Shown here in pieces: positions 3,397 through 34,970 of a stretch of DNA of 56,587 bases. The DNA comes from Vulcanimicrobiota bacterium. Its GTDB lineage: Bacteria > Vulcanimicrobiota > Vulcanimicrobiia > Vulcanimicrobiales > Vulcanimicrobiaceae. A program made the position numbers and the translations under genes. Below the pieces are notes generated by a model. It ran no database searches. It was given only the letters and a program-made list of their open reading frames with translations, and was not told the DNA's origin. Every line of letters begins with the position of its first letter. The stretch's first letter is position 1. The DNA lies in NCBI GenBank assembly GCA_027306785.1, contig DAHUZB010000012.1, positions 1 to 56,587 on the forward strand, given 5' to 3'.

Positions 3397-4620
3397 TTAG
3401 CCCGCTTCGTCGTTCTGAAAGAGCTGCGGGGCGCCCGGCGTGCGCTTCGAACGTGACGGGCGTTCTTGCGCGTCGAGCGCGGTGACGGTGCGTGGTGCGA
3501 GATCGATCACGTCGACCTCGGGCAGATCGTCGCTCGAGAGCGACGCCTCGTCTTTGAGCTTGCGCCCCTGCGGTAACAAGCGCGTCTCGTAGGTGCCGAC
3601 CGTTTCGTTGAACGCGCCGACCGTGCGTTCGATCTGCGCACCGAGCTTGACCAGGCGCTCCGCGAATTTCGTGCTGCGTTCGTAGAGTTCGCGTCCGAGC
3701 GCGGCGATGCGCTTGGCGTTCTCTTCCTGTTTGACCGCTTGCCAGCCCATCGCGAACGAGCGCAGCAGGCTGATCAGCGAGAGCGGTCCGGTGACGAGAA
3801 CGCCGCGATCGAGCGCGTATTCGATCAGCGCCGGATTTTCGTTGCAGGCCGCGCTCAGGAAGGCTTCGCCGGGCACGAACATGATCACGAAGTCGGCGGA
3901 ACCGTCGATCTGATGGTAGCCGCGCTTGGCGAGCGCATCGATGTGCTCTTGCAGCGCCTTCGCGTGGCGCTTGACGAGTTCGCGGCGCGCTTCCTCGTCG
4001 ACGGCGTCGAAGGCGGCCTGCAGCGCGTCGGTCGGCGCCTTCGCATCGACGAAGACGCGTCGGCTGCCCGGCAGATTCACCGTCATATCGGGGCGGCCGC
4101 GGCCCGATTCGACCGCGATCGTCTGCTGCTCGTCGAAGTCGCAATAGGCGAGCATGCCCGCTTTCTCGACCACGTTGCGCAGTTGGATCTCGCCCCACTT
4201 GCCGCGCGTCGAAGGACTGCGCAGCGCCGTCACGAGCGTGGAGGTTTGGTTGGAAAGCGCGTTCGCGGCCGATTCGATCTTGTCGGCGCGTTGCAGCAGG
4301 TTCTCGATCTGCGCTTTGAGGCTGCCGGTATCTTCGTTACGCTTGCTCTCGATTTCGCGCACGAGCCGGTCGAATTCGCCGAGCTTCTGCGCGATCGGTG
4401 CGACGATCTCGCCCACGCGTTCGCTCGCGCGTGCGGTCGTGCTCTCGCGCAGCTCGTTCTTGGCGCGTTCCAGCAGCGCTTCGACCGCGTGCGTTTGCTC
4501 GCCCGTCGCGGCGAGCCGTTCTTCGAGCCGCGCGGTACGCGCGCGTTGCGCGAGATGGACGAAGGCCGCGCCGATCGCAGCGCCGACGATGAGAAACAGG
4601 AGATCGACGAGTGTGGTCAC
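3397..4620 (-). CDS. rmuC: DNA recombination protein RmuC
   Basis: I start this gene at GTG 4620, which overlaps the stop of the dienelactone hydrolase gene by four bases (GTGA). The 407-residue protein has an N-terminal membrane helix (about residues 5-22, LLFLIVGAAIGAAFVHL), a long coiled coil, and the RmuC nuclease-like domain. Family hallmarks visible are RGKWGEIQLRNVVEKAGM, PDMTVNLPG, 'VFVDAKAPTDAL' and 'FVPGEAFLSAA'. RmuC limits genome rearrangements at inverted repeats, and has been linked to defence against invading DNA in some bacteria. An open frame continues upstream to 5427, but that extension only shadows the hydrolase gene. Confidence 0.92.
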   Translation of the reverse strand: MTTLVDLLFLIVGAAIGAAFVHLAQRARTARLEERLAATGEQTHAVEALLERAKNELRESTTARASERVGEIVAPIAQKLGEFDRLVREIESKRNEDTGSLKAQIENLLQRADKIESAANALSNQTSTLVTALRSPSTRGKWGEIQLRNVVEKAGMLAYCDFDEQQTIAVESGRGRPDMTVNLPGSRRVFVDAKAPTDALQAAFDAVDEEARRELVKRHAKALQEHIDALAKRGYHQIDGSADFVIMFVPGEAFLSAACNENPALIEYALDRGVLVTGPLSLISLLRSFAMGWQAVKQEENAKRIAALGRELYERSTKFAERLVKLGAQIERTVGAFNETVGTYETRLLPQGRKLKDEASLSSDDLPEVDVIDLAPRTVTALDAQERPSRSKRTPGAPQLFQNDEAG

Positions 4621-5405
4621 GGTAACGGTCCGAGCTGCTCCGAAAAGAAGGCGATCGTGCGTTTCCATGCGTCCTGCGCGGCGCTCGCGACGTACGATGC
4701 GCGGGTGTCGTCGAAGAAGGCATGGGCGGCGGTGGGATAGATGCGAATGTCGTTCGGCACGCGCAGGGCGTTGCGGAATGCGCGTACATCGTCCGCCGGG
4801 ATGCTGTGGTCCTTCTCGCCGTAGCTGCCGCAGACCGGAATGCGCACGTCGAGCGGATCGATATCCTTGACTGCTCCGTAGAACGGAGCGACCGCGCTGA
4901 AGACGTCGGCGTTGTCGATCGCTTGGATCAGTGCGATGTGTCCGCCCATGCAGAAGCCCGCCGTGCCCACCTTTCCGCTCGGCGACTTCGCGCGCAGATG
5001 CAGTGCCGCGGCGCGGAGGTCGCCGTCGTACTGCGCGCGCCGGAGCTTCGATGCATAGGGTTTGAAGAGAGCGATATCGCTCGTGCCGTCGCCGCTCGGC
5101 GGATCGTTGCGGGCGTAGAGATCGGGCGCGATGCAGTTGAAGCCGGCGAGCGCGAAGCGGCGTACCGTGTCGCGTAGTTGCGCGTCGACGCCCCAGATGT
5201 GCATGCAGATCACCACGCCCGGCGTGAGCGAGCTCGCGCGTTTGGGGTAGGCGGCATAGGCGTCGACGTTGCCGTCGGGGCGGCGCAGGATCGCGCGTTC
5301 GACGACGATCGCGGGATCGTCTTCCGGAACGAGCGGTGCGTGCGGCGCGCCGAGCGTCGAAGCGGCCACCGCACTTGCGGCGATGAAATCGCGGCGATTC
5401 ATCAT
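4617..5405 (-). CDS. Dienelactone hydrolase family protein, probably Tat-exported
   Basis: The 262-residue alpha/beta hydrolase begins MMNRRDFIAASAVAAS, which looks like a twin-arginine signal. The catalytic triad of the dienelactone hydrolase family is visible: Cys152 in GFCMGG, Asp199 in GEKDHSIP and His228 in AHAFFDD. The family hydrolyses dienelactone in chlorocatechol breakdown, but many members have other ester or lactone substrates. The start codon overlaps the LysR gene's stop (ATGA), and the stop overlaps the rmuC start (GTGA), so translation is coupled across the three genes. Confidence 0.9.
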   Translation of the reverse strand: MMNRRDFIAASAVAASTLGAPHAPLVPEDDPAIVVERAILRRPDGNVDAYAAYPKRASSLTPGVVICMHIWGVDAQLRDTVRRFALAGFNCIAPDLYARNDPPSGDGTSDIALFKPYASKLRRAQYDGDLRAAALHLRAKSPSGKVGTAGFCMGGHIALIQAIDNADVFSAVAPFYGAVKDIDPLDVRIPVCGSYGEKDHSIPADDVRAFRNALRVPNDIRIYPTAAHAFFDDTRASYVASAAQDAWKRTIAFFSEQLGPLP

Positions 5406-6313
5406 GCGTCGAATGCTCCCGCGTCATGGTCGTTGCAGAGGTACTCGCCGAATGCCCGCGCGAGCGGCGGCAGCGTGCGATCGCGCAGATGCACGAGCGA
5501 GAAAACGCGATCGAGCACGAGGTCGCTGACGGGAATGATGCGGACGGTCTTCATGGCGAGCGCACGCTCCACGACGCGTTCGGAAAGGATGGCAAGGCCG
5601 AGTCCGGCTTCGACGGCCCGCGCGATCGCTTCGCCACCCGGAAGCTCGATCACGAGGTTCGGCCGGACACCGCGTTCGAGCAAGAGTTCGTACCCGAGAT
5701 CGCGCGTTCCTGATCCCCGCTCGCGGCTCACGAACGCAATGCCGTCCAACTCTTCGGCGCGCACGCTCGCCCGCTTCGAGAAGGGATGGCCGCGCACCGG
5801 AACCACGAGCGCCATCCGATCGCGCGCGAACGGGCAGATCGTGAACGCTTCGTCGTCGATCCGCCCTTCGACGAGCCCGAGATGCACGTCGCCGTCACGC
5901 ACCAAGCGTGCGACCGCCGTCGTGTTGACCACGTCGACGCGCGGCACGATCTTGGGGCGGTCGCGCATGAATCCCGCGAGCACTTTCGGCAGCAGGTAGT
6001 TTCCGACCGTCAGCGTTGCGGCCAGATCGAGCGAGCCGCGTTCGGCGTGGCGATAATCGGCGGTCTCGCGCACCAAGCGATCGAGTTCGCGCGAGACCAT
6101 TTCGGCGCGCTCCGCGACGAAGCGTCCGGCGTCGGTGAGCACGGGCCGGTTGCGTACGATCTCGATGAGCTGCACGCCGAGCGCCCGCTGCAGCGCGGCG
6201 ATCTGCTGGCTGACGGCGGGTTGCGTGACGCGCAGACTCCGAGCCGCGCGGGTGAAACTGCCCGTGCGTGCGACCGAGCGGAGCGCCTCGATCTGGCTGA
6301 TGGTGATGTTCAT
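5402..6313 (-). CDS. LysR-family transcriptional regulator
   Basis: Starting at ATG 6313, the 303-residue protein has the LysR winged helix-turn-helix at residues 1-60 (FTRAARSLRVTQPAVSQQIA) and a two-lobe effector domain. It is divergent from the binding-protein/cytochrome/YeiH cluster that begins at 6384. In enterobacteria the sulfite-responsive LysR protein YeiE is encoded next to yeiH, so this gene is a candidate regulator of that cluster; this is inference from position. It also heads the minus-strand run with the hydrolase, rmuC, AraC and SnoaL-like genes. Confidence 0.93.
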   Translation of the reverse strand: MNITISQIEALRSVARTGSFTRAARSLRVTQPAVSQQIAALQRALGVQLIEIVRNRPVLTDAGRFVAERAEMVSRELDRLVRETADYRHAERGSLDLAATLTVGNYLLPKVLAGFMRDRPKIVPRVDVVNTTAVARLVRDGDVHLGLVEGRIDDEAFTICPFARDRMALVVPVRGHPFSKRASVRAEELDGIAFVSRERGSGTRDLGYELLLERGVRPNLVIELPGGEAIARAVEAGLGLAILSERVVERALAMKTVRIIPVSDLVLDRVFSLVHLRDRTLPPLARAFGEYLCNDHDAGAFDA

Positions 6314-6357
6314 AAGCAAATGTTTAGCAAGCGCTAGAAAACCCTAATTTGACTTAT
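6312..6357. promoter_or_regulatory. LysR-divergent control region with inverted repeats
   Basis: The 70-base gap between the LysR gene and the binding-protein gene is AT-rich for this genome. It holds ATAAGCAAAT (6312-6321) facing ATTTGACTTAT (6347-6357), a near-perfect inverted repeat, and an inner TAGC-AAGC-GCTA dyad (6325-6336). TTGACT (6349-6354) with TAGCGT 17 bases later is a possible plus-strand promoter. The layout fits LysR autoregulation and divergent control. Confidence 0.5.
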
Positions 6358-6383
6358 TGCGCTCGCCGTCCTAGCGTGGGAGT

Positions 6384-7274
6384 ATGCTTCGCACACTCGC
6401 ACTCGCCGCGGCAGCGCTGCTGCTGACCGTCGGCGCCGTACCCGCTCCGGTCGACGGCACCGTTCCCTGCGTCGATCAACTCATGGACATTCACGGCGAT
6501 CCGGTCGGAGCCGATCTCGTGATCTTCGCGGGCGGAAACCAGTGGTTCGTCATGCCCGCACTCCTCGCGGCGTTCCAAAAAGCGCATCCCGAGGTCAAGC
6601 ACGTCTTTTACGAAACGTTGCCGCCGGGGCTGCTCGCGGAGCAGATTCAGCGCGGCGGACTGCGCATCGGCGAGATGACGATCGGCCTGCACGCCGACGT
6701 CTATCTCTCGGGGAAAAAGCGGATGGATGCGATGCGCGCATCGGGTCTCGTCGGAACGCCCGTCACCTATGCGACGAACGTGCTCGCGATGATGGTTCGC
6801 GCGGGCAACCCCAAGCACATCGGATCGCTCGCCGATCTCGGCCGACCCGACGTTCGCGTCGCGATGCCGAATCCCAAGACCGAGGGCATCGCGCGTCAGA
6901 TCGAGCTCGCCTATAAAAAGACCGGCGGCGCCGCGCTCGTACGCACGATCATGGAGACCAAGGTTAAGAACGGCGGCACGCGTCTCACGCAAATCCATCA
7001 CCGTCAGACGCCGATGTGGATTCTCGACGGGCGCGTCGATGCGGGACCTGTGTGGATCTCCGAAGCGCTCTATCAGGAGCGCATTCACAGCGGCATCGTT
7101 GCCGTCCGCATCCCCGCCAAAGACAACGTCGAGGCGATCTACATGGGTGCGACCGTGAAGGGAGCTCCCCACCCGAGTGCCGCACAAGCCTTTGTGAACT
7201 TCCTGGCGACTCCGACGGCCGAGGCGATCTATCGCTCCTACGGCTTCGGCGCGCCGAAATCGACGGAGGAATAG
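6384..7274 (+). CDS. Periplasmic substrate-binding protein, ModA-like
   Basis: The 296-residue protein has a signal peptide (about residues 1-20) and a type-2 periplasmic binding fold. The arrangement 'LVIFAGGNQWFVMPALLAAF', 'GTPVTYATNVLAMMVRAGNP', 'SLADLGRPDVRVAMPNPKTE' and C-terminal 'SAAQAFVNFLATPTAEAIYR' matches the molybdate/sulfate-type binding proteins (SBP_bac_11 group). No ABC permease or ATPase follows. Instead the next genes encode an exported small protein, a TsdA-like cytochrome and YeiH, so it may bind an oxyanion or act as a periplasmic sensor. The ligand is not determined. Confidence 0.82.
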   Translation: MLRTLALAAAALLLTVGAVPAPVDGTVPCVDQLMDIHGDPVGADLVIFAGGNQWFVMPALLAAFQKAHPEVKHVFYETLPPGLLAEQIQRGGLRIGEMTIGLHADVYLSGKKRMDAMRASGLVGTPVTYATNVLAMMVRAGNPKHIGSLADLGRPDVRVAMPNPKTEGIARQIELAYKKTGGAALVRTIMETKVKNGGTRLTQIHHRQTPMWILDGRVDAGPVWISEALYQERIHSGIVAVRIPAKDNVEAIYMGATVKGAPHPSAAQAFVNFLATPTAEAIYRSYGFGAPKSTEE

Positions 7275-7277
7275 CCG

Positions 7278-7988
7278 ATGAAACGCACCACCTTCCTCGC
7301 CGCATCCGCATCGCTCGTCGCTGCCGGCAGCGCCGCGTCGGCCATGGCCGAGACCGTGCCCGGAGGCACGCACCTGGTCGAACGCAAGGCCGATTTCAAC
7401 GAGGCCGCGTTCGCCAAGCTCCTCGGGCGTCCGGCCGAGATTCGTCAGATGTTCGAGGCGATCGCGTTCAAGCCGACCATGCTCGCGAACATCAAGAACT
7501 CGCTCAACGGTCTGCACTTCGGATACGGGTATCCGGCGGATAAGATCGCGATCGCCGTCGCCAATCACGGCCCGTCGGCCGCGTACGGCTACAGCGATTA
7601 CGTGTGGTCGAAGTACAAGATCGGCGAATTCTTCGGCATCAAGAACGACGCCGGTGAAACGGTCACGAGCAACCTCTGGCTGAAGGCGAAAAACGCCTAC
7701 GATCCCTCGGGCGATCCCGACGACGAGAAGAGCATGTATCAGGATATGTCGATCGAGATGCTGCAAAAGCGCGGCGCGGTCTTCATGACCTGCCACACCG
7801 CGGTCGAAGAGCAGTCGCGCGCGATCGTGAAGAAGGGCCTTGCGCCCGCGGGCATGACCGGCCCCGAGGTCGCCGAGGATATCCTCACCCATCTCATCCC
7901 CGGCGCCGTCGTCGTTCCGTCGATGGTCGCGACGGTTGCCGTGCTGCAGGCCAAGTATCATTACACCTATGCCGCACTTACGTTCTAA
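7278..7988 (+). CDS. Exported protein, possibly DsrE/F-like
   Basis: A 236-residue protein starts three bases after the previous stop. It has a signal sequence (about residues 1-24, ending SAMA). The mature part includes 'KIAIAVANHGPSAAYGYSD', a buried-strand-like 'GAVFMTCHTAVEEQS' with a single conserved-looking cysteine, and 'PGAVVVPSMVATVAVLQAKY'. The strand-cysteine arrangement recalls DsrE/DsrF-type sulfur-relay proteins that have been exported, but I cannot confirm the family. Its place between a ModA-like binding protein and a TsdA-like cytochrome supports a role in periplasmic sulfur chemistry. Confidence 0.72.
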   Translation: MKRTTFLAASASLVAAGSAASAMAETVPGGTHLVERKADFNEAAFAKLLGRPAEIRQMFEAIAFKPTMLANIKNSLNGLHFGYGYPADKIAIAVANHGPSAAYGYSDYVWSKYKIGEFFGIKNDAGETVTSNLWLKAKNAYDPSGDPDDEKSMYQDMSIEMLQKRGAVFMTCHTAVEEQSRAIVKKGLAPAGMTGPEVAEDILTHLIPGAVVVPSMVATVAVLQAKYHYTYAALTF

Positions 7989-8820
7989 ACTCGCACTGAT
8001 CGTCGCGCTCGCCGCCGTCGCCATGACGGCGGCGTGCGCGAACCGGTCCTCGCAATCGTCCGCACCGCAGCAGAGCGCGTCGGCCTCGGCGTCGAGCGCG
8101 TCGGAGGCGCTCTACGATCCGCAGGCGCTGCCGACCGGACCGCTCGGTGCGTCGATCAAACTCGGCCACGACATCCTCGACGACACGCAGAAGTATCTTC
8201 CGCACAACGTCGTCGCGGGAATGTCGTGCTCCGCCTGTCACGTCGCCGCCGGAACGCAGGCGCGCGCGGGATCCTTGGTCGGCGTCTACGCGCGCTTTCC
8301 GCAGTGGAACAAGCGCGCGAAGCGCATGATCACGCTGCAGGATCGAATCGCGGAGTGCTTCTTGTACAGCATGAACGGCACGCCGCCCGCGTACACGAGC
8401 AAAGAGATGATCGCGATGGTGAGCTACATGGCGTATCTCTCGCGCAAGGTTCCGACCGGGCAGCCGGTTGCGAAAGACACGCGCTTCATCGTCGCGCTGC
8501 CGTCCGCGGCGCCGAACGTCGCGCACGGCGCCGCGCTCTACGCGCAGAAGTGCTCGATGTGTCACCAGGCGAACGGCGCGGGCGTGGCGGGCGCGTTTCC
8601 GCCGCTATGGGGTCCCACCTCGTTCAATAACGGCGCGGGCATGTCGCACCTTGCGATGATGACCGGGTTCGTGCTCTACAACATGCCGAAGAATGCGCCG
8701 GGATCGCTCTCGATGCAGGACGCCTACGATATCTCGGGCTGGGTGCTCACGCACAAGCGCCCGGTATTTCAGAAGGATCGGCTGATCACCCAACCGTCGC
8801 AGCCCGCGAAGTTCTTCTAG
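7969..8820 (+). CDS. Dihaem cytochrome c lipoprotein, TsdA-like
   Basis: I start at ATG 7969, 20 bases inside the preceding gene, because this gives a lipoprotein signal with TAAC around Cys23. Two haem-binding motifs are present, C87SACH91 and C195SMCH199, one per domain. The segment QDRIAECFLYSMNG places Cys130 where thiosulfate dehydrogenase TsdA and SoxA-type proteins carry a cysteine ligand to haem 1, and Met239 (NMPKN) could ligate haem 2. The likely role is thiosulfate or tetrathionate redox chemistry at the cell surface; the ligand assignments are inference. It is co-directional with the binding protein and YeiH genes. Confidence 0.87.
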   Translation: MPHLRSKLALIVALAAVAMTAACANRSSQSSAPQQSASASASSASEALYDPQALPTGPLGASIKLGHDILDDTQKYLPHNVVAGMSCSACHVAAGTQARAGSLVGVYARFPQWNKRAKRMITLQDRIAECFLYSMNGTPPAYTSKEMIAMVSYMAYLSRKVPTGQPVAKDTRFIVALPSAAPNVAHGAALYAQKCSMCHQANGAGVAGAFPPLWGPTSFNNGAGMSHLAMMTGFVLYNMPKNAPGSLSMQDAYDISGWVLTHKRPVFQKDRLITQPSQPAKFF

Positions 8821-8856
8821 CGGCGACGCACGGACCACTCGAAATAGGATAACGCG

Positions 8857-9825
8857 ATGCTCGGGGTTCTTCTCTGTCTCATCGTGGCGGTCGTCGCCAC
8901 GGTGCTCGGTGGCTACGTGCCGATCGTCGGTGCACCGGTCTTCGCGATTCTACTCGGCGTGATCATTGCGATCGTGCGTGCGCCCGATGCGCGCTTGAAG
9001 CAAGGCATCACCTTCGCGAGCAAACAGCTGCTGCAGTGGTCGATCGTGCTGCTCGGCGCGAACCTGAGCCTCGCTCAGATCGTGCACGGCGGCGCGCAAT
9101 CGCTGCCGGTGATGATCGGTACGTTCGTCGTGGTGCTGGTGCTCGCGTACGTGGTCGGCGGCATGCTCGGGCTCGACCGCGATCTGCGGCGGCTGCTCGG
9201 CGTGGGCACCGCGATCTGCGGCGGCTCCGCAATCGCGGCGCTCTCGAGCGTGATCGAGGCCGACGCGGCCGACATCGCCTACGCGCTCGGCGCCGTCTTT
9301 CTCTTCAATGTGGTCGCGGTGATCCTGTTCCCGCCGCTCGGACATCTCATGCATCTTTCGCAGAGCGCGTTCGGGCTGTGGGCGGGCACCGCGATCAACG
9401 ACACGTCGTCGGTCGTTGCGGCGGCGTTCGCGTACGGTCATTCCGCCGGTACGTCCGCGGTGATCGTGAAGCTCACGCGTACCACGCTGATCGTGCCGCT
9501 GGTGCTGTTCTACGCGTGGCGGCGCGTGCGCGAATCGCGCGAAGGCGAGCGCGTGGATCTGCGCTCGATCATGCCGTGGTTCATCCTGTGGTTCTTGCTC
9601 GCCGCGACGCTCAATTCGCTCGGCGTGATTCCGCTCGCACTGCAGGCGCCGCTGCAGAAGCTCGCGCTCTTCGCGATCGTCGTCGCGCTCGCGGGCGTCG
9701 GCCTCGGCACCGACATCGCGAAGATTCGCAGCGCCGGATTTCGCCCGCTGTTGCTGGGCGCAATCCTCTGGGCCGCAATCTCGTGTACGAGCTTAGGAAT
9801 CGCCTCGCTCATGAAGGTGCTCTAG
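8857..9825 (+). CDS. YeiH-family putative sulfate exporter
   Basis: The 322-residue polytopic membrane protein has about ten hydrophobic segments and the family signatures 'WSIVLLGANLSLAQI', 'GVGTAICGGSAIAALSSVIEA' and 'GLWAGTAINDTSSVVAAAF'. The family (UPF0324, YeiH) is annotated as a putative sulfate or sulfite exporter on limited evidence. It lies 36 bases after the TsdA-like gene, which supports a shared sulfur role for the cluster: uptake or sensing, oxidation, then export of the oxyanion. Confidence 0.9.
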   Translation: MLGVLLCLIVAVVATVLGGYVPIVGAPVFAILLGVIIAIVRAPDARLKQGITFASKQLLQWSIVLLGANLSLAQIVHGGAQSLPVMIGTFVVVLVLAYVVGGMLGLDRDLRRLLGVGTAICGGSAIAALSSVIEADAADIAYALGAVFLFNVVAVILFPPLGHLMHLSQSAFGLWAGTAINDTSSVVAAAFAYGHSAGTSAVIVKLTRTTLIVPLVLFYAWRRVRESREGERVDLRSIMPWFILWFLLAATLNSLGVIPLALQAPLQKLALFAIVVALAGVGLGTDIAKIRSAGFRPLLLGAILWAAISCTSLGIASLMKVL

Positions 9826-10651: not shown

Positions 10652-13600
10652 GTGGCGGACGCGGTCGTCAAAGTGACCCTTCCCGAGATGGGGGAGTCGG
10701 TCGCCGAGGGTTCCATCGTGGAGTGGCGCAAGAAGGTCGGCGATTTCGTAGCCGAGGGCGACACCCTCGTCGATGTGACGACCGATAAGGTCGACGTCGA
10801 GGTCCCCGCGACCGCGTCGGGCGTCATCACGCAGATATTCGGCGGCGAGGGCGACGCGATCGCCGTCGGCGCCGTGCTCGCCGAGATCGACACGACCAGG
10901 GTCGCCGGCAACGGCAAGGCCACGAGCAACGGGCATGCCGCCACGAACGGCTCGGCCGCGCCCGCTGCGGCGCCCGAGCGCAAGGGCCCGCCGCAGCTCG
11001 TCGAGGTCACGCTCCCCGAGATGGGCGAGTCGGTCACCGAGGGCTCGATCGTCGAATTTCGCGTGAAGCCGGGTCAGTACGTGAACGAAGGCGACACGAT
11101 CGCCGATGTGACCACCGACAAGGTGGACGTGGAGGTTCCCGCCCCCGCCGCGGGCGCGGTGACGCAGCTCTTCGGCGCCGCCGGCGACACGATCGCGGTC
11201 GGGGCGAAACTCGCCGAGATCGATGTCAACGCCGCGCCCGTGCTTCGACAGGCTCAGCATGACACAGCGGGCGGCGGGCGTGACACAGCGGGCGGCGGGC
11301 ATGACACAGCGGGTGGCGAGCGTGACACAGCGGGCGGCGGGCGTGACTCAGCGGGCGGCCGGGCGGCCGCGGAGCAGAAGAGTGTCATCCTGAGCGCGCC
11401 GCAGGCGCAGTCGAAGGACGTGCTCGCGACCGCGCAGGCGCGTCGTATCGCCCGCAAACAGGATCTCGACCTGCGCCTCGTGCGCGGCTCGGGCCCCGAC
11501 GGCCTGATCCTGCGCGCTGACGTGCTCTCGCAGGCCGAACAGGCGCGCCGCAAGTCGGCCGCGCCCGGCGCGGCGAACCTGCCGCCGCTGCCGCCGATCG
11601 GCGCGGGCGCGAAGGTGACGCCGCTCAAAGGCCCCGCCGCCGCGCTCGCGGGCTACATGGACCAGTCGCTCACGATTCCCACGGCGACGAGCTTCCGCAC
11701 GCTCGCCGTCGACGTGCTCGATGCGCGACGCAAAGAGCTCAACGGCGCGATCAAGTCCGCGGGGCGCGCGGAGAAGGTTTCGTTCACGCACCTGATCGCC
11801 TACGCGATGGTGCGCGCCGCGAGCGAGATGCCGTTCATCACGCACAGCTTCCGTCGCGACGACCACGGCGCGCCCGTGCGCGTCGAACCGGGCGTGCACC
11901 TGGGCCTCGCCGTAGATTCGGAACGCAAGGACGGCTCGCGCTTCCTCGTCGTGCCGGTGATCAAGAACGCGGCCGCGCTCGATTTCGCGGGCTTCTACGC
12001 ACAGTATCAGGCGCTCGTCGATAAAGCGCGCGAGAACAAACTCGGCGCCGACGATCTGCAAGGCGCGTCGTTCACGCTCACCAATCCGGGCGGTATCGGC
12101 ACGGTCGCGTCGGTTCCGCGTTTGATGGCGGGTCAGGGCGCGATTCTCGCGACCGGTGCGATCGGCTATCCGCCGGGCTTCGCGAACGTGCCCGAAGCGA
12201 CGGCGAAGTCGCTCGGCTTGAGCAAGGTCATGCAGATGACGAGCACCTACGATCATCGCGTCGTGCAGGGTGCGCAATCGGGCGAGTATCTGCGTCGCGT
12301 CGATCAGTTGCTGCAGGGCACCGACGGCTTCTACGAAGCGGTCTTCGCCGCGCTCGGTCTCACGGCGGGCCCGGCGCCGCGCGCGCAGGTCTCCGCGATG
12401 CCGACGACCGTCGCCGCGAGCGCGCAGACGCCCGCCGCGCCGAGCGACGAGATGCTGCGCGCGGTTGCAGCTGCGATGGCGATCGTCTCGGGCTATCGCA
12501 CGCACGGCCATCTCGCCGCGCAACTCGATCCGCTCGGCTCCGCGCCGATCGGCGATCCCAAGCTCGATCCGGCGACCTACGGGCTCACGCCCGCGCTGCA
12601 GGCCGCGATTCCGGCCTCGGTGCTCAACGTCAAAGTTCCCGGCAACACGCTCGCCGATATTCTGCCGCGTCTGAAAGAGACGTATAGCTCGACGATCGCT
12701 TACGAGTTCGAGCACATCTCGAACACCGATCAACGCCGCTGGCTGCGCGAGACGATCGAGAGCGGCGCGCACAAGGTCTCGCTCTCACCGCAGCGCCAGA
12801 TCGAATTCTTGCATCGCCTCACCAAGGTCGAAACGTTCGAGCGCTACATTCGCAAGACGTTCCTCGGACAGAAGAGTTTCTCGGGTGAGGGTCTGGACGT
12901 GATGGTCCCGATGCTCGAAGAGATGCTGGAGATGTTCGCCGACGACGGCACGCCGAACGCCGTGATGGGTATGGCGCACCGCGGTCGCTTGAGCGTGATC
13001 GCGCACGTCGTAAACATGCCCTACGAAGAGCTGCTCGGCGAGTTCGAAGCGGCGCATCAGCGCGGCGAGGTGTCGAGCGACGACGATGTGACCGGCGACG
13101 TGAAGTATCATCACGGCGCGACCGGCGTGTACACCACCTCGAGCGGCAAGCAGATCATGGTGACGCTGCAGCACAACCCGTCGCATCTCGAAGCGGTCGA
13201 TCCGGTCGTCGAGGGACGCACGCGCGCGCTGCAGACCGATCATGCCGGTCCCGCGCCGCTCTTCGACGTGAAGAAGGCGGCGCCGATCCTGATCCACGGC
13301 GACGCCGCGTTCACGGGTCAAGGCATCATCTCGGAAGTCTTCAACCTGCAGTCGCTCAAGGGATACAGCACCGGCGGCACGGTGCACCTGATCGCGAATA
13401 ACCAGATCGGCTTCACCACCGATTCGCCCGACTCACGTTCGACGCGCTACGCGTCGGATCTCGCGAAGGGCTTCGATGCGCCGATCGTGCACGTGAACGC
13501 CGACGATGTGGATGCGTGCATCTCCGCGGTGCATCTGGCGGTCGAGTTCCGCCGCCGCTTCGGCCGCGACGTCGTGATCGATCTGATCGGCTATCGCCGT

Positions 13601-15019
13601 TTCGGTCACAACGAACAGGACGAGCCCGCGTACACGCAGCCGATGATGTACGACAAGATCAAGACGCATCCGACCGCGCGCGAACTCTTTGCCAACAAAC
13701 TGATCGCGCAAGGCGCGATTACCGCCGACCAGGCGAACGAGATGATCGCGGAAACGACGGCGCGTCTGCAGGAGGCGTACAAGAACGTCAAGTCCGCCCC
13801 GGGCAAAGGCATGATCGAGAAGATCAGCGCCTCGGCGCCGCTGCCGACCGCCACGCTCGCGCCGATCGACAAGGCGACGCTCGTGAAGTGGAGCGACGAA
13901 CTGGTCGCGACGCCGCAGGGTTTTGCGATCAACAAGAAGCTCACCACGCAGTTCGAGCGCCGCAAGGCCGTGATCGCCGAGAAGGGTCTCGTCGATTGGG
14001 GCATGGCCGAAGGCCTCGCGTTCGCATCGCTGCTCTCGTCGGGCGTGCCGATCCGTATCTCGGGTCAGGATACCGAACGCGGCACGTTCAGCCATCGTCA
14101 CGCGTTGCTGCACGATCCGAGCAGCGACGCGGAGTACGTGCCGCTGCAGCATCTCGCGGGCTCGCGGGCGAGCTTCGAGATCCATAACAGCCCGCTCTCG
14201 GAATACGCGTGTCTCGGCTTCGAGTACGGCTACGCCGTCGCGGTGCCGAAGTCGCTCGTGCTCTGGGAAGCGCAGTTCGGCGATTTCGTCAACGGCGCAC
14301 AGATCATCATCGATCAATTCATCGCCGCCGGTCAGGCGAAGTGGGGACAAACCTCGCGTCTCACCCTGCTGCTGCCGCACGGGTACGAAGGTCAGGGCCC
14401 GGAGCACTCGAGCGCGCGTCTCGAGCGCTTCCTGCAGCTCGCGGCCGAGAACAATCTGCGCGTCGCCTATCCGTCGAACGCGGGCAGCTACTTCCACCTG
14501 CTACGTCTGCAGGCGAGCACGCCGAATCCGGTGCCGCTGATCGTGATGACGCCGAAGTCGCTCTTGCGCGCGGAGATCGCCGCGGGTTCGATCGACGACA
14601 TGGCGACGGGTGAGTTCAAGCCGGTGCTCGACGATCCGAACGTGACCGACAAGAAGAAGATCGAGCGCATTCTGCTCTGCACGGGCAAGGTGTACTACGA
14701 TCTGATCGGCTCCGAGCTCTACGCGAAGATGAAGCACACCGCGATCGTGCGCATCGAGCAGCTCTCGCCGATGCCGGGCGCCGAGATCAATGCCCTCCTC
14801 GACACCTACCCGAATCTCAAATCGCTCGTGTGGGTGCAAGAAGAGCCGAAGAACATGGGTGCGCGTGCCTACGTGCGCCGTCGTCTGCTCGAGAAGCTCG
14901 ACAAGCCGCTCGACATCGGCTACGCGGGACGCGGCTATCGCGCCTCGCCCTCGGAAGGCTATCCGGGCGCGCACGCGGTCGAACAGGAGCGCGTGGTCAC
15001 GAACGCGCTTACCGAGTGA
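10652..15019 (+). CDS. kgd: Multifunctional 2-oxoglutarate dehydrogenase: two lipoyl domains + E2 + E1
   Basis: This 1455-residue fusion starts at GTG. In order it has lipoyl domain 1 (about 5-80, lipoyl Lys46 in DKVDVE), lipoyl domain 2 (about 115-191, Lys157), a peripheral-subunit-binding domain (about 257-292, ATAQARRIARKQDLDL), an E2 succinyltransferase domain (about 320-570, catalytic His535 in YDHRVVQG), and a SucA-type E1 (about 595-1455). The E1 has GDAAFTGQG and NNQIGFTT of the thiamine-diphosphate site and LLPHGYEGQGPEHSSAR. It converts 2-oxoglutarate to succinyl-CoA in the TCA cycle; only E3 is missing. Actinobacterial Kgd has the E2-E1 fusion but, as known, lacks its own lipoyl domains. 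Residues 198-258 are encoded by an inserted repeat. Confidence 0.95.
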   Translation: MADAVVKVTLPEMGESVAEGSIVEWRKKVGDFVAEGDTLVDVTTDKVDVEVPATASGVITQIFGGEGDAIAVGAVLAEIDTTRVAGNGKATSNGHAATNGSAAPAAAPERKGPPQLVEVTLPEMGESVTEGSIVEFRVKPGQYVNEGDTIADVTTDKVDVEVPAPAAGAVTQLFGAAGDTIAVGAKLAEIDVNAAPVLRQAQHDTAGGGRDTAGGGHDTAGGERDTAGGGRDSAGGRAAAEQKSVILSAPQAQSKDVLATAQARRIARKQDLDLRLVRGSGPDGLILRADVLSQAEQARRKSAAPGAANLPPLPPIGAGAKVTPLKGPAAALAGYMDQSLTIPTATSFRTLAVDVLDARRKELNGAIKSAGRAEKVSFTHLIAYAMVRAASEMPFITHSFRRDDHGAPVRVEPGVHLGLAVDSERKDGSRFLVVPVIKNAAALDFAGFYAQYQALVDKARENKLGADDLQGASFTLTNPGGIGTVASVPRLMAGQGAILATGAIGYPPGFANVPEATAKSLGLSKVMQMTSTYDHRVVQGAQSGEYLRRVDQLLQGTDGFYEAVFAALGLTAGPAPRAQVSAMPTTVAASAQTPAAPSDEMLRAVAAAMAIVSGYRTHGHLAAQLDPLGSAPIGDPKLDPATYGLTPALQAAIPASVLNVKVPGNTLADILPRLKETYSSTIAYEFEHISNTDQRRWLRETIESGAHKVSLSPQRQIEFLHRLTKVETFERYIRKTFLGQKSFSGEGLDVMVPMLEEMLEMFADDGTPNAVMGMAHRGRLSVIAHVVNMPYEELLGEFEAAHQRGEVSSDDDVTGDVKYHHGATGVYTTSSGKQIMVTLQHNPSHLEAVDPVVEGRTRALQTDHAGPAPLFDVKKAAPILIHGDAAFTGQGIISEVFNLQSLKGYSTGGTVHLIANNQIGFTTDSPDSRSTRYASDLAKGFDAPIVHVNADDVDACISAVHLAVEFRRRFGRDVVIDLIGYRRFGHNEQDEPAYTQPMMYDKIKTHPTARELFANKLIAQGAITADQANEMIAETTARLQEAYKNVKSAPGKGMIEKISASAPLPTATLAPIDKATLVKWSDELVATPQGFAINKKLTTQFERRKAVIAEKGLVDWGMAEGLAFASLLSSGVPIRISGQDTERGTFSHRHALLHDPSSDAEYVPLQHLAGSRASFEIHNSPLSEYACLGFEYGYAVAVPKSLVLWEAQFGDFVNGAQIIIDQFIAAGQAKWGQTSRLTLLLPHGYEGQGPEHSSARLERFLQLAAENNLRVAYPSNAGSYFHLLRLQASTPNPVPLIVMTPKSLLRAEIAAGSIDDMATGEFKPVLDDPNVTDKKKIERILLCTGKVYYDLIGSELYAKMKHTAIVRIEQLSPMPGAEINALLDTYPNLKSLVWVQEEPKNMGARAYVRRRLLEKLDKPLDIGYAGRGYRASPSEGYPGAHAVEQERVVTNALTE
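11240..11423. repeat. Palindromic repeat element inserted in frame in the E2 linker
   Basis: GTGCTTCGACAGGCTCAGCA (11240-11259) continuing TGACAC is faced by GTGTCATCCTGAGC (11382-11395) followed by GTCGAAGGACGTGC (11410-11423). The two ends are inverted copies of the same motif, interrupted in the right copy by a 14-base GC-rich insert. The TTCGACA..CTCAG.ATGA core is a widespread bacterial intergenic palindrome whose antisense translation gives the familiar spurious MLSLSKH peptide, also seen here. In this gene it is read through without a stop between lipoyl domain 2 and the subunit-binding domain. Confidence 0.8.
11260..11364. repeat. Five tandem 21-bp units inside the linker
   Basis: Five head-to-tail copies of a 21-base unit (TGACACAGCGGGCGGCGGGC plus one base) begin at 11260, 11281, 11302, 11323 and 11344. 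Copies 1 and 4 are identical and copy 5 is the most diverged. Being a multiple of three, they encode the heptad [H/R]D[T/S]AGG[G/E/R] repeated five times. The array lies between the two palindrome arms. Confidence 0.93.
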
Positions 15020-19712: not shown

Positions 19713-20444
19713 ATGGCTAGCGTTCGGACTTTAGCGAACCCTCCGATAATTGAGGGCGTTTTGGGTATTTCCGTGGCTAGCGAAATCGAACCGAAGGACA
19801 TCGAGATCGTGGCAAAAGAGCTCGCCGCGAGTTACCCGGTTATTCATGCGCTCGTTGAAATTGAAGGACAGATACAAATCGGTCCTGGTAGCAACATGGT
19901 CGGGCATCAGCAGCGGCTGAAAGGCTTCCAGATTCGTAGCGAGAGCGAAAATGTTGTTGCGTCGTTAAAAAGCGACGGGATCAATGTTAGTGTGCTCGCG
20001 CCGTACCAAGGCTTTGAGGCTCTTGTTGAAATCGCGTCGAATGTGTGGGGGGCGTATACGCGCAGTTGGCCTGCCCTTCAAGTCACCCAAGTGGGCCTTC
20101 GCTATATCAATCAGCTTGATTTGCCACTCCCTATCCCGGATTTTCAAGATTATATTAGGACGGTCCCGCTTGTCGGCAGTCCGTTGCCTCAGGGCCTGAG
20201 TCAATTTGCCATGCAGTTAGTTCTCCCAGAGCCCGGCACGGGTAATGTCGCGATTATCAACGAGCTACTGGATCCGCAGAGGCGTAAATCTGCAAACTCC
20301 GTGCCAATCATTTTTGACATTGAAGTTCGGCGTGAGTGCAATCTCGGCAGTGATGTCTGGACTACGATTCGAGATTTGAGGCGCTTCAAGAACGAAGTTT
20401 TTTTTGGGAGTCTGACCGAACGCTGTTTGGAGTTGTTTCAATGA
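19713..20444 (+). CDS. TIGR04255-like protein, first gene of a low-GC three-gene island
   Basis: Starting at ATG 19713 the product is 243 residues and begins MASVRTLANPPIIEGVLGIS. The 'NPPIIEG' opening, central 'GLRYINQLDLP' and C-terminal 'LTERCLELF' fit the sporadically distributed TIGR04255 family, whose function is unknown. No signal or membrane segment is seen. Base composition drops clearly from about here and codon choice is unlike the neighbours, suggesting acquisition by transfer. Its stop overlaps the next start (ATGA). GTG 19671 is a possible alternative start. Confidence 0.8.
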   Translation: MASVRTLANPPIIEGVLGISVASEIEPKDIEIVAKELAASYPVIHALVEIEGQIQIGPGSNMVGHQQRLKGFQIRSESENVVASLKSDGINVSVLAPYQGFEALVEIASNVWGAYTRSWPALQVTQVGLRYINQLDLPLPIPDFQDYIRTVPLVGSPLPQGLSQFAMQLVLPEPGTGNVAIINELLDPQRRKSANSVPIIFDIEVRRECNLGSDVWTTIRDLRRFKNEVFFGSLTERCLELFQ

Positions 20445-20857
20445 GTGTTTTGGAGATGAAATCGCCTCTGATGTTGTCTAACGCGGCGAGCGTTAGTCGA
20501 GTAGAAGTTGCAATATCCGATCGCTTTCAGACTGCATATGCAAATGTGCTGACGAAGCCATCGGTCGCAATTGTTCCCATGTTGCGTCTCCTTGGGGCCC
20601 GCCTTGAGGGCGATCTCGCTTACACGTCGAACCCAGGTCTTATTAGAGATCATCCTGCGTATGAGAAAATAATCGCTCTCGGTGATGAATACGTTGTAAG
20701 CTATGCAATCGAGAGACTTCGAGAAGAACCGTGGATTTGGCTTGAGGTCTTGAAAGGCGTCGCTGGGGAAAATCCTGTTCCGAAGCGTCATTACGGGAAC
20801 ACGGCCGCGATGATTCGAGACTGGGTCAAGTGGGCGAAAGAGCATCGATATATTTAA
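20441..20857 (+). CDS. Small helical protein, second gene of the low-GC island
   Basis: The 138-residue protein overlaps the TIGR04255-like gene by four bases. Its C-terminal half has a pattern I have seen in many scattered bacterial proteins of unknown function: 'HPAYEKIIALGDEYVVSYAI', a W-x-W-L motif, 'GENPVP' and 'AAMIRDWVKWAKE'. The N-terminal half has two helix-like segments ending in 'LEGDLAYTSNPGLIRD'. No catalytic residues stand out, so I take it as a helical adaptor or antitoxin-like partner, which is inference. Low GC as for its neighbours. Confidence 0.72.
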   Translation: MSVLEMKSPLMLSNAASVSRVEVAISDRFQTAYANVLTKPSVAIVPMLRLLGARLEGDLAYTSNPGLIRDHPAYEKIIALGDEYVVSYAIERLREEPWIWLEVLKGVAGENPVPKRHYGNTAAMIRDWVKWAKEHRYI

Positions 20858-20860
20858 TCG

Positions 20861-21328
20861 ATGAATTGGCGGCAGACTAGCAAGATTGATGGTCGCTATA
20901 ACTGCGTTGCCTGGGGCTTACATTGCAGTTCCGATACTATTTGGCCTGAAGATGGCCATTTTTGGCCTCTTCCGTATCCCAAAACGGTTGATGTTACTGC
21001 GTTTGTGCGAGGCTTTGCCTGCTACGGCTTTGAGCCATGCGCAACAAGCGATTTGGAGCACGATTTTGAGAAGATTGCACTTTATACATCCCATGGAGTC
21101 CCGACGCACGTCGCGAGACAGTTGCGTGATGGTACATGGACGAGCAAGCTCGGCCCGAAGATCGACATATGGCACCGAGGGCTCAACGATTTCCCGGAAG
21201 ATCTCTTCTTACGGGTGGGTTATGGTCAGGCAACTCATTTTTTTAAAAGGAGCCACGGACGGGCGCGTTTGGATATGATCCGGCGGACCCTATGGATATT
21301 AAAACGAAAGATTGAAGCGCGTTTCTAA
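20861..21328 (+). CDS. DUF7689-like protein with candidate Cys-His-Asp site, third gene of the island
   Basis: The 155-residue protein starts three bases after the previous stop. The visible order is NCVAWG (Cys15), 'WPEDGHFWPLP', 'GFEPC', 'FEKIALYTSHGVPTHVARQL' (His83), 'GTWTSKLGPKIDIWH' (Asp102, His105). This matches my memory of the DUF7689 family. A cysteine at a helix start (NCxAW) followed by separated His and Asp is also how papain-like, NlpC/P60 and CHAP enzymes are laid out, so a cysteine hydrolase is possible; this is inference only. It may be the effector of the island. Confidence 0.75.
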   Translation: MNWRQTSKIDGRYNCVAWGLHCSSDTIWPEDGHFWPLPYPKTVDVTAFVRGFACYGFEPCATSDLEHDFEKIALYTSHGVPTHVARQLRDGTWTSKLGPKIDIWHRGLNDFPEDLFLRVGYGQATHFFKRSHGRARLDMIRRTLWILKRKIEARF

Positions 21329-21473
21329 CCTTTTAGCCAAGTACATCGGTTTTGAGTTGTATGGCACGCGTCTGTTCCATCCGAGCCGCTCGTCACGCTG
21401 CGTCCGCGCGGTCCGCTGACCATGCGCCTTCTCGCCCGGTCATCCGGGCCGGCGGCAGCGGCGTACTAGGGGC

Positions 21474-22496
21474 ATGACTCGTCTTTTTGCCGCCTTCGCG
21501 GCCCTTGTGATCTCGAGCGCAGCCGCGGCGAATGCGGCGACGCTTCCCCGCGCGGATCTCGGCGTTACGAGCGCCGTCTCCGTCGATACCAACCTGCACA
21601 CCGTCACGCTGCCGATCCGTCGCGGACGCGTCGGTTCGGAGACGGTGTGGTACATCGTCACCGATGCATCCACCCCGGCCGCGGCGCGCGCCTACGGCGT
21701 CAACTACGCTCCGTCGCTGAAAGATCTCGGCGCGGCGGCATTACAGTCGGCCGTGAAAGGCCGTAACGGCGAGCTCGCGTTTCAAGGCGGGCCGAACTTC
21801 GCGCCGACGCGCACCTACGTTGCGAGCGCGGGCGGCTTTCCGCCGAAGTCCGCCACCCCGGGCGGCATCGGCGACGCGGCCTACTCGCCGTTCGTCCAGG
21901 TCGCGGGCCTCGGCATCATCAACGCGCCGATCATCGCGACCGGCACGGGAGCGTTCGATGTCACGAAACATACGAATACCGAAGATCGCGTGATCGCGAT
22001 CGACGTGCACAAGAAGACGGCGACGCTCGTCATGGCGCGCGGATTTTCGAACGGTAAGCCGATCTACTACATCAGCACCGAAGCTTCGAACCCGGTCGCG
22101 GCCTCGGTCGAGCGCGCTACCTACGTGCCGAAGCTCGCGAAAGCGCAGGCTGCGGGTGAGATTCCGATCGGCGTCGTGGTCGACGGTCCGCAGACCGGCA
22201 CCGCGCCGCAGGGACTCACCTTCCTCACGCTGCACACGCCGCTTGGCGTCGACGCGACCGCCGCGAACGTGAAGACGATCATGTCCTCGTTCAACGTACT
22301 CTCGATCGCGCCGAACCTTGCGAAGCCCTACGCCGACAACGGCTACTCGCCGCTCTGGAGCGTGCAGGTGGTCGGCAAGCACGCGACGCGCGTGACCAGC
22401 TACTCCGCCTATGCCGCGCTCGGAGCCAAGCCCGCGGGGTTCGTGGTGAACTGCCCGTTCATCTCGCTCGGCGACGAGAGCGCCGGAGGCTACTAG
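21474..22496 (+). CDS. Secreted protein of unknown function
   Basis: GC returns to the window's high level here. The 340-residue protein has a signal peptide (about 1-22). It seems to hold two related beta-rich halves: 'VSVDTNLHTVTLPIRRGRVG..VWYIVTDAS' and 'AIDVHKKTATLVMARGFSNG..IYYISTEAS', each followed by a YxPxL segment, suggesting an internal duplication. Near the C-terminus is 'YSPLWSVQVV'. I cannot assign a family. Its stop overlaps the recQ stop on the other strand (CTAG). Confidence 0.72.
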   Translation: MTRLFAAFAALVISSAAAANAATLPRADLGVTSAVSVDTNLHTVTLPIRRGRVGSETVWYIVTDASTPAAARAYGVNYAPSLKDLGAAALQSAVKGRNGELAFQGGPNFAPTRTYVASAGGFPPKSATPGGIGDAAYSPFVQVAGLGIINAPIIATGTGAFDVTKHTNTEDRVIAIDVHKKTATLVMARGFSNGKPIYYISTEASNPVAASVERATYVPKLAKAQAAGEIPIGVVVDGPQTGTAPQGLTFLTLHTPLGVDATAANVKTIMSSFNVLSIAPNLAKPYADNGYSPLWSVQVVGKHATRVTSYSAYAALGAKPAGFVVNCPFISLGDESAGGY

Positions 22497-34600: not shown

Positions 34601-34970
34601 TGACCGCGTAGTAGCCCGGTACGGCGACTTCATTCGCGTGCGAAAACGCATCGCGCAACGTCGAGGGATCGCCTTGGATCGGCCCCGAGACCGGTAGGAT
34701 GCCGAAGTCGCCGAAGACGCTGCAGCCCGGGCCGCTCAGATGCGTGAGGCTGAAGCCGGTAATGCTCGTGTCGCCGTACTCGTAGCCTCCGCCCGCGTTT
34801 TGCGAGGGTGTGTCGGGGCTCCATTGCACCATTCCGAACGGCATATCCGCGCCGGGAAACGTATCGATCGGTCCGCCGATCGGCGTGCCCGACGTGCCGA
34901 CGAACGGATCCACATGCGATGCCGGTGCGAGCGACGCGGCGAGCAGCAACGAACCTACGAGCGCAATCAT
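31602..34970 (-). CDS. Exported GH92 alpha-mannosidase fused to a seven-bladed YVTN propeller
   Basis: The 1122-residue protein has a signal peptide (about 1-17), the GH92 N-terminal beta-sandwich ('VDPFVGTSGTPIGGPIDTFP' and 'GADMPFGMVQWSPDT') and the GH92 (alpha/alpha)6 domain. The catalytic-acid region is 'FQEGDAAQYTWMVPQD' and the base motif is 'GNDDLGTMSAWYVWSSLGLY'. After about residue 740 comes an Ig-like domain and then seven roughly 42-residue YVTN blades ('PNGTAISRDGSTVWVAD', 'PTGLALSPDGSTLFVADN'). GH92 enzymes are Ca-dependent exo-alpha-mannosidases. The propeller may bind glycans or tether the enzyme. Confidence 0.92.
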   Translation of the reverse strand: MIALVGSLLLAASLAPASHVDPFVGTSGTPIGGPIDTFPGADMPFGMVQWSPDTPSQNAGGGYEYGDTSITGFSLTHLSGPGCSVFGDFGILPVSGPIQGDPSTLRDAFSHANEVAVPGYYAVTLGSPPMRVQLSVTDRTGLGVFTFSAPDGGLVLDPASNQAGVTQASAHAVGDREVVAQAASGNFCGMPDQYTVYLAMRFDRAFTTAQPLTSRDGHPRLLLRFDTARDRTVRAQVALSFVDARGALANLHAEAHSWSIVHVRNAALDAWDSMLSRIRVGGGTVDATRQFYTALYHATLHPNVIDDADGRYRGFDGRIHHVRAGHHEYANYSDWDIYRTQIPLIALIAPHRTSDMMQSLVDAYEQSGRLPRWALVNNPTSVMGGDSVDPVLAGGYAFGARDFDVRGALGAMIAGATNTTDPPVYDWYVERPESADYQRLGYIPNTHTTSVSPVPNGASETLEYALDDASIAAFARAIGDDAAYRRFIPRASNWANLFDTSLGLIAPRDASGAFEQTPIGESGQSGFQEGDAAQYTWMVPQDLPGLMRGMGGARTAAAKLDTFFTQLDAGQSEPYAWMGNEPSIGSPWAYLAAGQPWREQAIVREVLRTLYADRPDGIPGNDDLGTMSAWYVWSSLGLYPQFTAVRSLDLGTPLFPHVVIAAPNGPRITIDAPHAGTADAYVTSLRLNAAPWDRSWFALPTHGAVHLTYRVASTPNERWAASPADAMPAFAPFTGSFPASTRATLAFASSSISLRPGESASVALRVRNADAPLTYTVGGDLRASIADGHVRVSGAPAGLYNVIVGATAANGARLAPVRLVVRVANPGQVLPLAWIANRFDNTVMPYDPRTNALGPSIAVGEEPRDGALTPDNRRFFVADRSAQAVSVVDTVAQRVIATVHVGNSPNGTAISRDGSTVWVADYDDGTIQSIDTASLRASTPIAVGAGPRFIAVAPNGDRVYVSNQRANTVSAIDTRTRRVIASWPAGAMPTGLALSPDGSTLFVADNGSRSVTVIDTTDGRMLATIPAGVEAQMVAVSPDGSRAFVPNYASNTLTPIDPKTRTAAPAIVVGGQPFDAQWLPDGSAAIVILHRDNALVRVARDGTVGTPLFLGSGGAYTISIAH

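Follow-up and report, generated by a model that had tools for sequence, protein, structure and literature searches.

A review from 2019 treated the non-haem thiosulfate dehydrogenase Tsd of Acidithiobacillus and the haem enzyme TsdA of Allochromatium as separate kinds in different bacteria, and asked for their distribution (PMC6335251). Both are described there as acid enzymes (pH 2.5 for Tsd of Acidithiobacillus ferrooxidans, pH 4.0 for TsdA of Allochromatium vinosum), and the tsd, sbp and doxDA genes of A. ferrooxidans are duplicated. The A. ferrooxidans operon comprises genes for a transporter (AFE_0041), a Tat protein (AFE_0042, Tsd), a solute-binding protein (AFE_0043) and DoxDA (AFE_0044), and it was expressed more highly on sulfur than on iron (PMC2754497). 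Here, we explored a four-gene cluster with relatives of both Tsd and TsdA in a window of 56,587 nt, the whole stretch that was analysed (contig DAHUZB010000012.1 of a Vulcanimicrobiota bacterium). It encodes a solute-binding protein (SBP, gene 1), an exported protein (gene 2), a dihaem cytochrome c (gene 3) and a YeiH-family exporter (gene 4), and a divergent LysR gene adjoins this run. The cluster is real, conserved and probably regulated; its parts are known in kind and their combination appears to be new. With a probability of about two in three, we read it as a sulfite-regulated periplasmic thiosulfate/tetrathionate module whose electron outlet would be exchangeable.

The locus resembles the A. 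ferrooxidans operon in that a gene of the Tsd kind lies beside a binding protein gene, grouped with genes for a transporter and an oxidoreductase of a tetrathionate-forming type, in a setting that is sulfur-induced there (PMC2754497, PMC6335251). However, that operon has DoxDA instead of TsdA and AFE_0041, annotated as C4-dicarboxylate/malate type, instead of YeiH, whereas our gene 2 appears to belong to a sister subfamily below the cut-off of the NF052225 model, and a divergent LysR gene is present. Our literature search found no description of a tsd-sbp-tsdA cluster in the sources that it reached, which does not establish absence from print.

The first-pass annotation, made from the sequence alone, had placed the four genes in a row and divergent from the LysR gene; the coordinates (6384–9825) and strands were confirmed (Table 1). 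The bias at third codon positions (GC3) is clear in all four genes. Genes 1 and 2 are separated by 3 nt, genes 2 and 3 overlap by 20 nt, and 36 nt lie between genes 3 and 4. Because the start codon of gene 3 lies inside gene 2, the arrangement suggests translational coupling of these two genes.

The genome searched has 3.14 Mb in 35 contigs and is 96% complete. Its closest named relatives are metagenome-assembled genomes (MAGs) of "Candidatus Eremiobacterota", which is the phylum Vulcanimicrobiota; several of the related MAGs have palsa or bog in their titles. Two sets were compared, namely 60 genomes (G numbers, own genome included) and 80 loci around gene 2, of which 43 were grouped as Eremiobacterota and 37 as Acidobacteriota. 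Loci L035–L114 are partly the same as the 60 genomes (e.g., L038/G012 and L041/G022), and the counts are not independent.

Gene 2 had no Pfam match at an E-value of 0.1, the DsrE model PF02635 included. The NCBIfam model NF052225 (thiosulfate dehydrogenase) matched it with 109 bits (E = 2.5e-31). We equated NF052225 with the AFE_0042 type from the name and description of the model; the AFE_0042 sequence itself was not compared. Two plasmid homologs scanned with the same model scored 418 bits (L123, Bradyrhizobium) and 375 bits (L117, Gluconobacter), and the homolog from Acidipila rosea scored 95. Across 90 aligned rows, 12 of them plasmid homologs that include L123 and exclude L117, residues W110, Y113, N132, R165, G166 and C172 were invariant. 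Gene 2 thus has its residue pattern in common with a true NF052225 member, L123, which has SBP and TsdA as neighbours; L117 has SBP and DoxDA beside it. On these comparisons, gene 2 is a predicted sister subfamily of the NF052225 non-haem thiosulfate dehydrogenase. Plasmid proteins of L117, L121, L123, L127, L130 and L131 are named "transcriptional initiation protein Tat"; the two tested, L117 and L123, are NF052225 thiosulfate dehydrogenases, and the annotation there is misleading. In one Acidobacteriota MAG (L079, 1038–1748), gene 2 has a stop codon within the matched range, and is either a pseudogene or a sequence error.

The AlphaFold model of gene 2 (predicted local distance difference test, pLDDT, 89; predicted template modelling score 0.84) matched 1l1s in the VIA comparison with Z = 12.4 and a root-mean-square deviation of 1.4 over 107 aligned positions. 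Further DsrE-family chains followed (2pd2, Z = 12.0; 3pnx, 8.4; 2qs7, 8.0; 3mc3, 7.8), and the next unrelated chain had 4.5. Plain Foldseek against the PDB gave no match at E below 0.001, and the sequence had a single match to solved structures (E = 0.94) that we regarded as chance. As modelled, gene 2 has the DsrE fold, and a signal peptide was seen by eye; an earlier suggestion of a possibly DsrE-like exported protein is therefore upheld and refined to a putative sister of NF052225. DsrE3A of Metallosphaera cuprina likewise belongs to the DsrE family and carries thiosulfonate on Cys (PMC4175335), but it has a TusA partner and two reactive Cys, whereas gene 2 has one Cys and the signal peptide.

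TsdA of A. vinosum has an active site of Cys123, Arg109, Arg119 and Ser127 (PMC4423706). Gene 3 matched its structure 4wqc with E = 8.2e-54 over residues 54–270 of the 284-residue translation, and PF21342 matched in the Pfam search. The four active-site residues align with C130, R116, R126 and S134 of gene 3, respectively. The TsdA alignment had 66 rows, the window's own plus 33 from Eremiobacterota, 22 from Acidobacteriota and 10 from plasmids; C130, R126, S134 and the haem-2 Met ligand M239 were invariant in all of them, and R116 was replaced by K in 9 and kept in the other 57. The two CXXCH haems, the catalytic Cys ligand and the haem-2 Met are as in TsdA of both A. vinosum and Campylobacter jejuni, and the two Arg and the Ser are as in A. 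vinosum. By all of these sequence tests, gene 3 is a predicted TsdA, and the proposal of a TsdA-like dihaem lipoprotein with C130 as a possible haem-1 ligand held up well. Unlike the A. vinosum and C. jejuni enzymes, it has a lipoprotein-like N-terminus (C23, by eye) and belongs to a group in which a gene-2 relative is nearby in 16/21 genomes with strong TsdA.

In one position, gene 3 differs from A. vinosum and agrees with C. jejuni: N238 precedes M239 where A. vinosum has Lys, and Asn was found in 56/66 rows. In C. jejuni TsdA, a tetrathionate reductase, Asn254 replaces the haem-2 Lys of A. vinosum (PMC5146829). The module could accordingly run in reverse, with TsdA as a tetrathionate reductase when oxygen is short and with the DsrE-like protein and SBP capturing tetrathionate; DsrE3A of Metallosphaera, which reacts with tetrathionate and not with thiosulfate (PMC4175335), would suit such a role. 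We consider this unlikely. Terminal oxidases neighbour the clusters of Acidipila rosea, Spirosoma, Methylobacterium and Hymenobacter, which points to oxidation, and DoxDA, described as thiosulfate-oxidising, occupies the slot of TsdA elsewhere. Moreover, TsdA enzymes are reported to be bidirectional, so residue 238 alone decides little.

The SBP matched PF13531 (E = 2.1e-50), but it fell short of the thresholds of named NCBIfam models (CysP 39.8/308, sulfate-binding 37.8/155.5 and ModA 39.4/62.5 bits). Its structural model (pLDDT 89.7) was equally close in VIA to SubI 6ddn (Z = 23.0), ModA-type chains (22.6) and 1sbp (22.4). The first-pass label "ModA-like" is supported by domain and fold. Residues E167, H205, H206 and R207 were invariant in 61/61 SBP rows. 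In 1sbp, a sulfate-binding protein, the residue aligned with E167 is S130, which we take to be a sulfate ligand. A plain sulfate binder was therefore rejected, as E167 occupies the place of this serine. The best score for a CysT/W-type permease (TIGR00969) in the genome was 56/240 bits (other permease families were not searched), and no ABC permease gene was present in the annotated plasmid clusters examined. The SBP is apparently an orphan whose putative binding site is conserved and its own. It might instead bind molybdate for a molybdoenzyme and stand beside sulfur genes by accident, given PF13531, the partial match to the ModA model and a closeness to the ModA/WtpA fold that equals that to sulfate binders. 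The invariant E167 and H205-H206-R207, the permease results and the steady pairing with TsdA or DoxDA all speak against this, and we regard it as very improbable. A second, smaller substrate-binding protein lies 3' of SBP in Hymenobacter and Komagataeibacter clusters (L128, L129, L134).

The first-pass annotation had called the combination of genes unusual. This was not borne out: SBP, a DsrE-fold protein and TsdA recur as a module in Eremiobacterota, Acidobacteriota and plasmids of Pseudomonadota and Bacteroidota. Because relatives of Tsd and TsdA share one operon and the same neighbours across four phyla, they are likely to be partners rather than alternatives. For the cluster as a whole, the recurrence of related clusters in other phyla indicates that its parts probably work together.

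Of the 22 plasmid records with SBP (E = 1e-30), 17 have a TsdA gene at most about 3 kb away from an SBP copy; nine pairs were viewed directly (L115, L121–L125, L127–L129) and eight by coordinates, one of these across the record start. For three large Paraburkholderia plasmids, SBP beside gene 2 was deduced from the L124 copy. Extra SBP copies were checked in part, and one in the Bradyrhizobium record L116 had no TsdA in the following 4 kb. The remaining five records are Gluconobacter (3), Kozakia and Acetobacter, with DoxDA located 3' of SBP in 4/4 examined; the Gluconobacter thailandicus DoxDA has PF04173 and PF07680, and the Acetobacter record has an additional TsdA 15 kb away. DoxDA stands in for TsdA in Gluconobacter and its kin, as in the published A. 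ferrooxidans operon. Our own genome has a PF04173 (DoxD) match of 32 bits, over the low cut-off of 22.7, which we presume may be a DoxX relative and did not use as evidence. Starting from gene-2 matches, 13 plasmid loci (L115–L127) were obtained, nine with SBP and eight with TsdA; Caballeronia L120 has TsdA and no SBP. In plasmids of Hymenobacter, Spirosoma and Komagataeibacter, a short PF02635 DsrE protein beside SBP takes the place of gene 2. YeiH is near the gene set in Methylobacterium, two Hymenobacter and Spirosoma, and in the last it adjoins a PF00174 molybdopterin oxidoreductase, a domain that we take to be that of sulfite oxidases.

Of the 60 genomes, 29 have a relative of gene 2, 21 a strong TsdA (E below 1e-50), 31 YeiH and 12 a close SBP (E below 1e-70). 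We disregarded weaker cytochrome and SBP matches, with which the totals would rise to 54 and 37 genomes. Six of the 60 (G000, G002, G011, G012, G022 and G026) keep all four genes in the intact order; a seventh (G030) has a gene that by eye is acetyltransferase-like before yeiH, and its SBP is cut by the contig end. The frequency of the intact order is therefore far beyond chance. Within 1.3 kb of 16/21 strong TsdA genes there is a gene-2 relative. A check on whether the order is conserved or the genes are scattered in relatives thus came out mostly in favour of the proposed cluster. Within 3.5 kb of gene 2, the Eremiobacterota loci have TsdA in 35/43, SBP in 18/43 and YeiH in 17/43. Some of these loci end early; among the 23 whose flanks both exceed 3 kb, the counts are 20, 11 and 11, and all three genes are present in 10.

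The Acidobacteriota loci have SBP in 33/37 and TsdA in 29/37 within the same distance (both in 19/21 of those with room), and their order differs, being gene 2, SBP, TsdA. In G044 and G046, neither of which has a YeiH match, TsdA is separated from gene 2 by a TauE/SafE gene; TauE takes the place of YeiH in these two genomes. In Acidipila rosea (L085, 4199–6793), a fused cbb3-type oxidase (COX1, FixO and two cytochrome c domains) is encoded directly upstream of gene 2-SBP-TsdA.

In midpoint-rooted trees of gene 2, TsdA and SBP, Eremiobacterota and Pseudomonadota each formed one well supported group, and Acidobacteriota formed one group with lower support (83/77, 91/91 and 91/91). The branching between phyla differs among the trees, and the gene 2 and TsdA trees carry a long-branch warning. 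Because the rows of each phylum form one group, the trees speak against a recent transfer into the lineage of the window.

Gene 4 matched PF03601 with 256 bits (cut-off 24.5) and was the sole match to this model in the genome; its TIGR00698 score was below the cut-off (147.3/232.6 bits). A YeiH-type exporter, as first annotated, is supported by the former model and not reached by the latter. The LysR protein had PF03466/PF00126 in the Pfam search, and its nearest solved structures are 5y2v (CcmR/NdhR), followed by 8sbf and YeiE 8sbh. It scored 170/480 bits with NF040889 (YeiE), so that the proposed kinship with YeiE finds support in structures but not in the family cut-off. Its E151 (numbered from TTG), in GLVEG, aligns with GFIEG of YeiE and is kept in 16/16 cluster LysR proteins; it may correspond to Glu145 of Cronobacter sakazakii YeiE, which reportedly tells sulfite from sulfate. 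A close divergent LysR copy is present in 16/43 Eremiobacterota loci, and a remote LysR relative in 3/37 Acidobacteriota loci.

Two comparable pairs have been described. In Hyphomicrobium denitrificans, thiosulfate raised yeiH 526-fold and the neighbouring LysR gene 66-fold, and this regulator is closest in kind to NdhR/CcmR (5Y2V) and YeiE (PMC12423496). In Salmonella, YeiH is under YeiE control and drives sulfite resistance (PMC12880088). Our locus is like Hden_0835/0834 and the Salmonella YeiE-YeiH pair in having a LysR of CcmR/YeiE kind beside YeiH, in systems responsive there to thiosulfate or sulfite; it is unlike them in that the regulator precedes thiosulfate genes and yeiH comes last, and sulfite sensing here is putative. 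The Salmonella result would also agree with a sulfite-stress operon built around YeiH and LysR, with the remaining products scavenging sulfur oxyanions against damage and not for energy. The arrangement in G008, where the LysR gene and its candidate site lie directly 5' of yeiH, points the same way. However, YeiH is missing near gene 2 from the Acidobacteriota loci that mostly keep SBP and TsdA, even a remote LysR relative is rare there, and the oxidase links suggest respiration; we judge a stress operon to be quite improbable.

Seven aligned intergenic regions between the LysR gene and the operon have in common ATAAG and T(A/T)ATTTGACTTAT. The 13-mer pattern TWATTTGACTTAT occurs once in the genome, at 6345–6357. 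The core TTTGACTTAT lies upstream of the operon in 16/16 Eremiobacterota loci with a close divergent LysR gene and in 0/27 others, among which we placed L043, with a remote LysR relative elsewhere. Extra copies were met in L039 (a second one) and in the plasmid locus L120. In G008, a genome outside the derivation of the operator, the LysR gene is flanked by TsdA and yeiH, with a TTTGACTTAT site directly before yeiH (0.10 expected with one mismatch allowed). The site is missing from L138 and L139, which both have TsdA and YeiH. On grounds of conservation, ATAAG/TTTGACTTAT is a candidate LysR operator. A scan for −10/−35 consensus did not call an SBP promoter, and a terminator scan called none after yeiH. 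There are 6 nt between the −10-like element and the start codon of SBP, a distance that is alike in most of the seven relatives, so that the operon may give a leaderless mRNA.

The absence of Sox and ABC transport genes, remarked on at first, holds genome-wide for SoxB (best score 81/550 bits) and the CysT/W-type permease; other Sox genes, like other permease families, were not searched. SoxB was over the cut-off in 6/60 genomes, and G008 alone has SoxB together with strong TsdA. A mutual exclusion of SoxB and TsdA (6 and 21 of 60 genomes, one shared) was considered and dropped, since about two shared genomes are expected by chance.

The module could work as follows. TsdA would join two thiosulfates to tetrathionate via a Cys-S-thiosulfonate on the haem-1 ligand C130, as in the chemistry of A. 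vinosum TsdA, and the electrons would pass over haem 2 to the respiratory chain. Gene 2 may act in the same step via C172, by activating thiosulfate as an enzyme or by carrying thiosulfonate to TsdA. The ligand of SBP may be a sulfur oxyanion, or SBP may bind to TsdA or to the gene 2 protein; in either case it would help to present the substrate. YeiH would export cytoplasmic sulfite, and the YeiE-type LysR would sense sulfite and switch the operon via ATAAG/TTTGACTTAT. Because tetrathionate formation makes no sulfite, the sulfite probably comes from acid breakdown of thiosulfate or its use in the cytoplasm. More tentatively, and well short of even odds, all of these clusters may hold one machine, in which SBP captures thiosulfate, C172 of Tsd carries the thiosulfonate, and electrons pass either to the haem Cys of TsdA or to the quinone-linked DoxDA.

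Several results weigh against the thiosulfate/tetrathionate module. The place of the exporter is indirect and is the weakest link. Gene 2 is far under the NF052225 cut-off (109 vs. 300 bits), the haem-2 Asn, shared with the C. jejuni reductase, would leave the direction open, and the invariant Glu in place of Ser130 of 1sbp argues against plain sulfate as the SBP ligand. TsdA lacks a gene-2 neighbour in 5/21 genomes (G003, G008, G014, G036 and G042). SBP and YeiH are each near gene 2 in fewer than half of the Eremiobacterota loci, YeiH was found in 0/37 Acidobacteriota loci, and three of the gene-2 plasmid loci (L118, L119 and L126) have neither SBP nor TsdA. Finally, Vulcanimicrobium alpinus, a cultured strain of Eremiobacterota, encodes Sox and was reported to show no lithoautotrophic growth on thiosulfate (PMC9758169), a result that speaks against living on thiosulfate in general.

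Table 1. Features of the cluster and of other parts of the window.
Feature	Position	Strand	Remarks
LysR gene	5402–6313	−	YeiE/CcmR-like; ATG at 6313, alternative open reading frame start TTG at 6319
ATAAG, left half of candidate operator	6312–6316		Overlaps LysR start codon; invariant in 7/7 intergenic regions
TAATTTGACTTAT, candidate LysR operator	6345–6357	+	−35-like TTGACT at 6349–6354; 12/13 positions invariant in 7/7
TAGCGT, −10-like	6372–6377	+	17 nt from TTGACT; 6 nt before SBP start; by eye
SBP gene (gene 1)	6384–7274	+	Apparent orphan periplasmic binding protein, sulfate/molybdate fold
Gene 2	7278–7988	+	Exported DsrE-fold protein, predicted sister of NF052225 non-haem thiosulfate dehydrogenase
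C172 codon	7791–7793	+	Sole Cys of gene 2; C172 in 90/90 aligned rows
tsdA (gene 3)	7969–8820	+	Predicted TsdA-type dihaem cytochrome c
Haem-1 motif CSACH (C87–H91)	8227–8241	+	Cys/Cys/His invariant in 14/14
C130 codon	8356–8358	+	Aligns with Cys123, the catalytic haem ligand in A. vinosum TsdA
Haem-2 motif CSMCH (C195–H199)	8551–8565	+	Cys/Cys/His invariant in 14/14
yeiH (gene 4)	8857–9825	+	YeiH-family exporter, probable sulfite exporter
Dienelactone-hydrolase family gene	4617–5405	−	Tat-like signal; adjoins LysR
1455-aa protein	10652–15019	+
Glycosyl hydrolase 92 protein	31602–34970	−	C-terminal beta-propeller-like region
G+C dip	20001–22000		0.558; other 2-kb steps of the window 0.61–0.71

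Two flanking genes also have relatives within 3.5 kb of gene 2 in Eremiobacterota loci, the dienelactone-hydrolase family gene in 22/43 and the gene of the 1455-aa protein in 23/43. By eye, the latter looks to us like a fused E2-E1 2-oxoglutarate dehydrogenase. Farther along the window, the glycosyl hydrolase 92 gene and the local dip in G+C content are listed in Table 1.

In the Tsd literature that we met, no explanation was given for the role of the A. ferrooxidans-type sbp gene. With the genes in one operon, it becomes directly testable what accepts the electrons of Tsd and what the neighbouring binding protein does. If the tentative reading of one machine is true, it would name the missing physiological acceptor of Tsd. 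The cluster also offers a candidate thiosulfate route for Eremiobacterota without SoxB and for Acidobacteriota, including Acidipila rosea DSM 103428.

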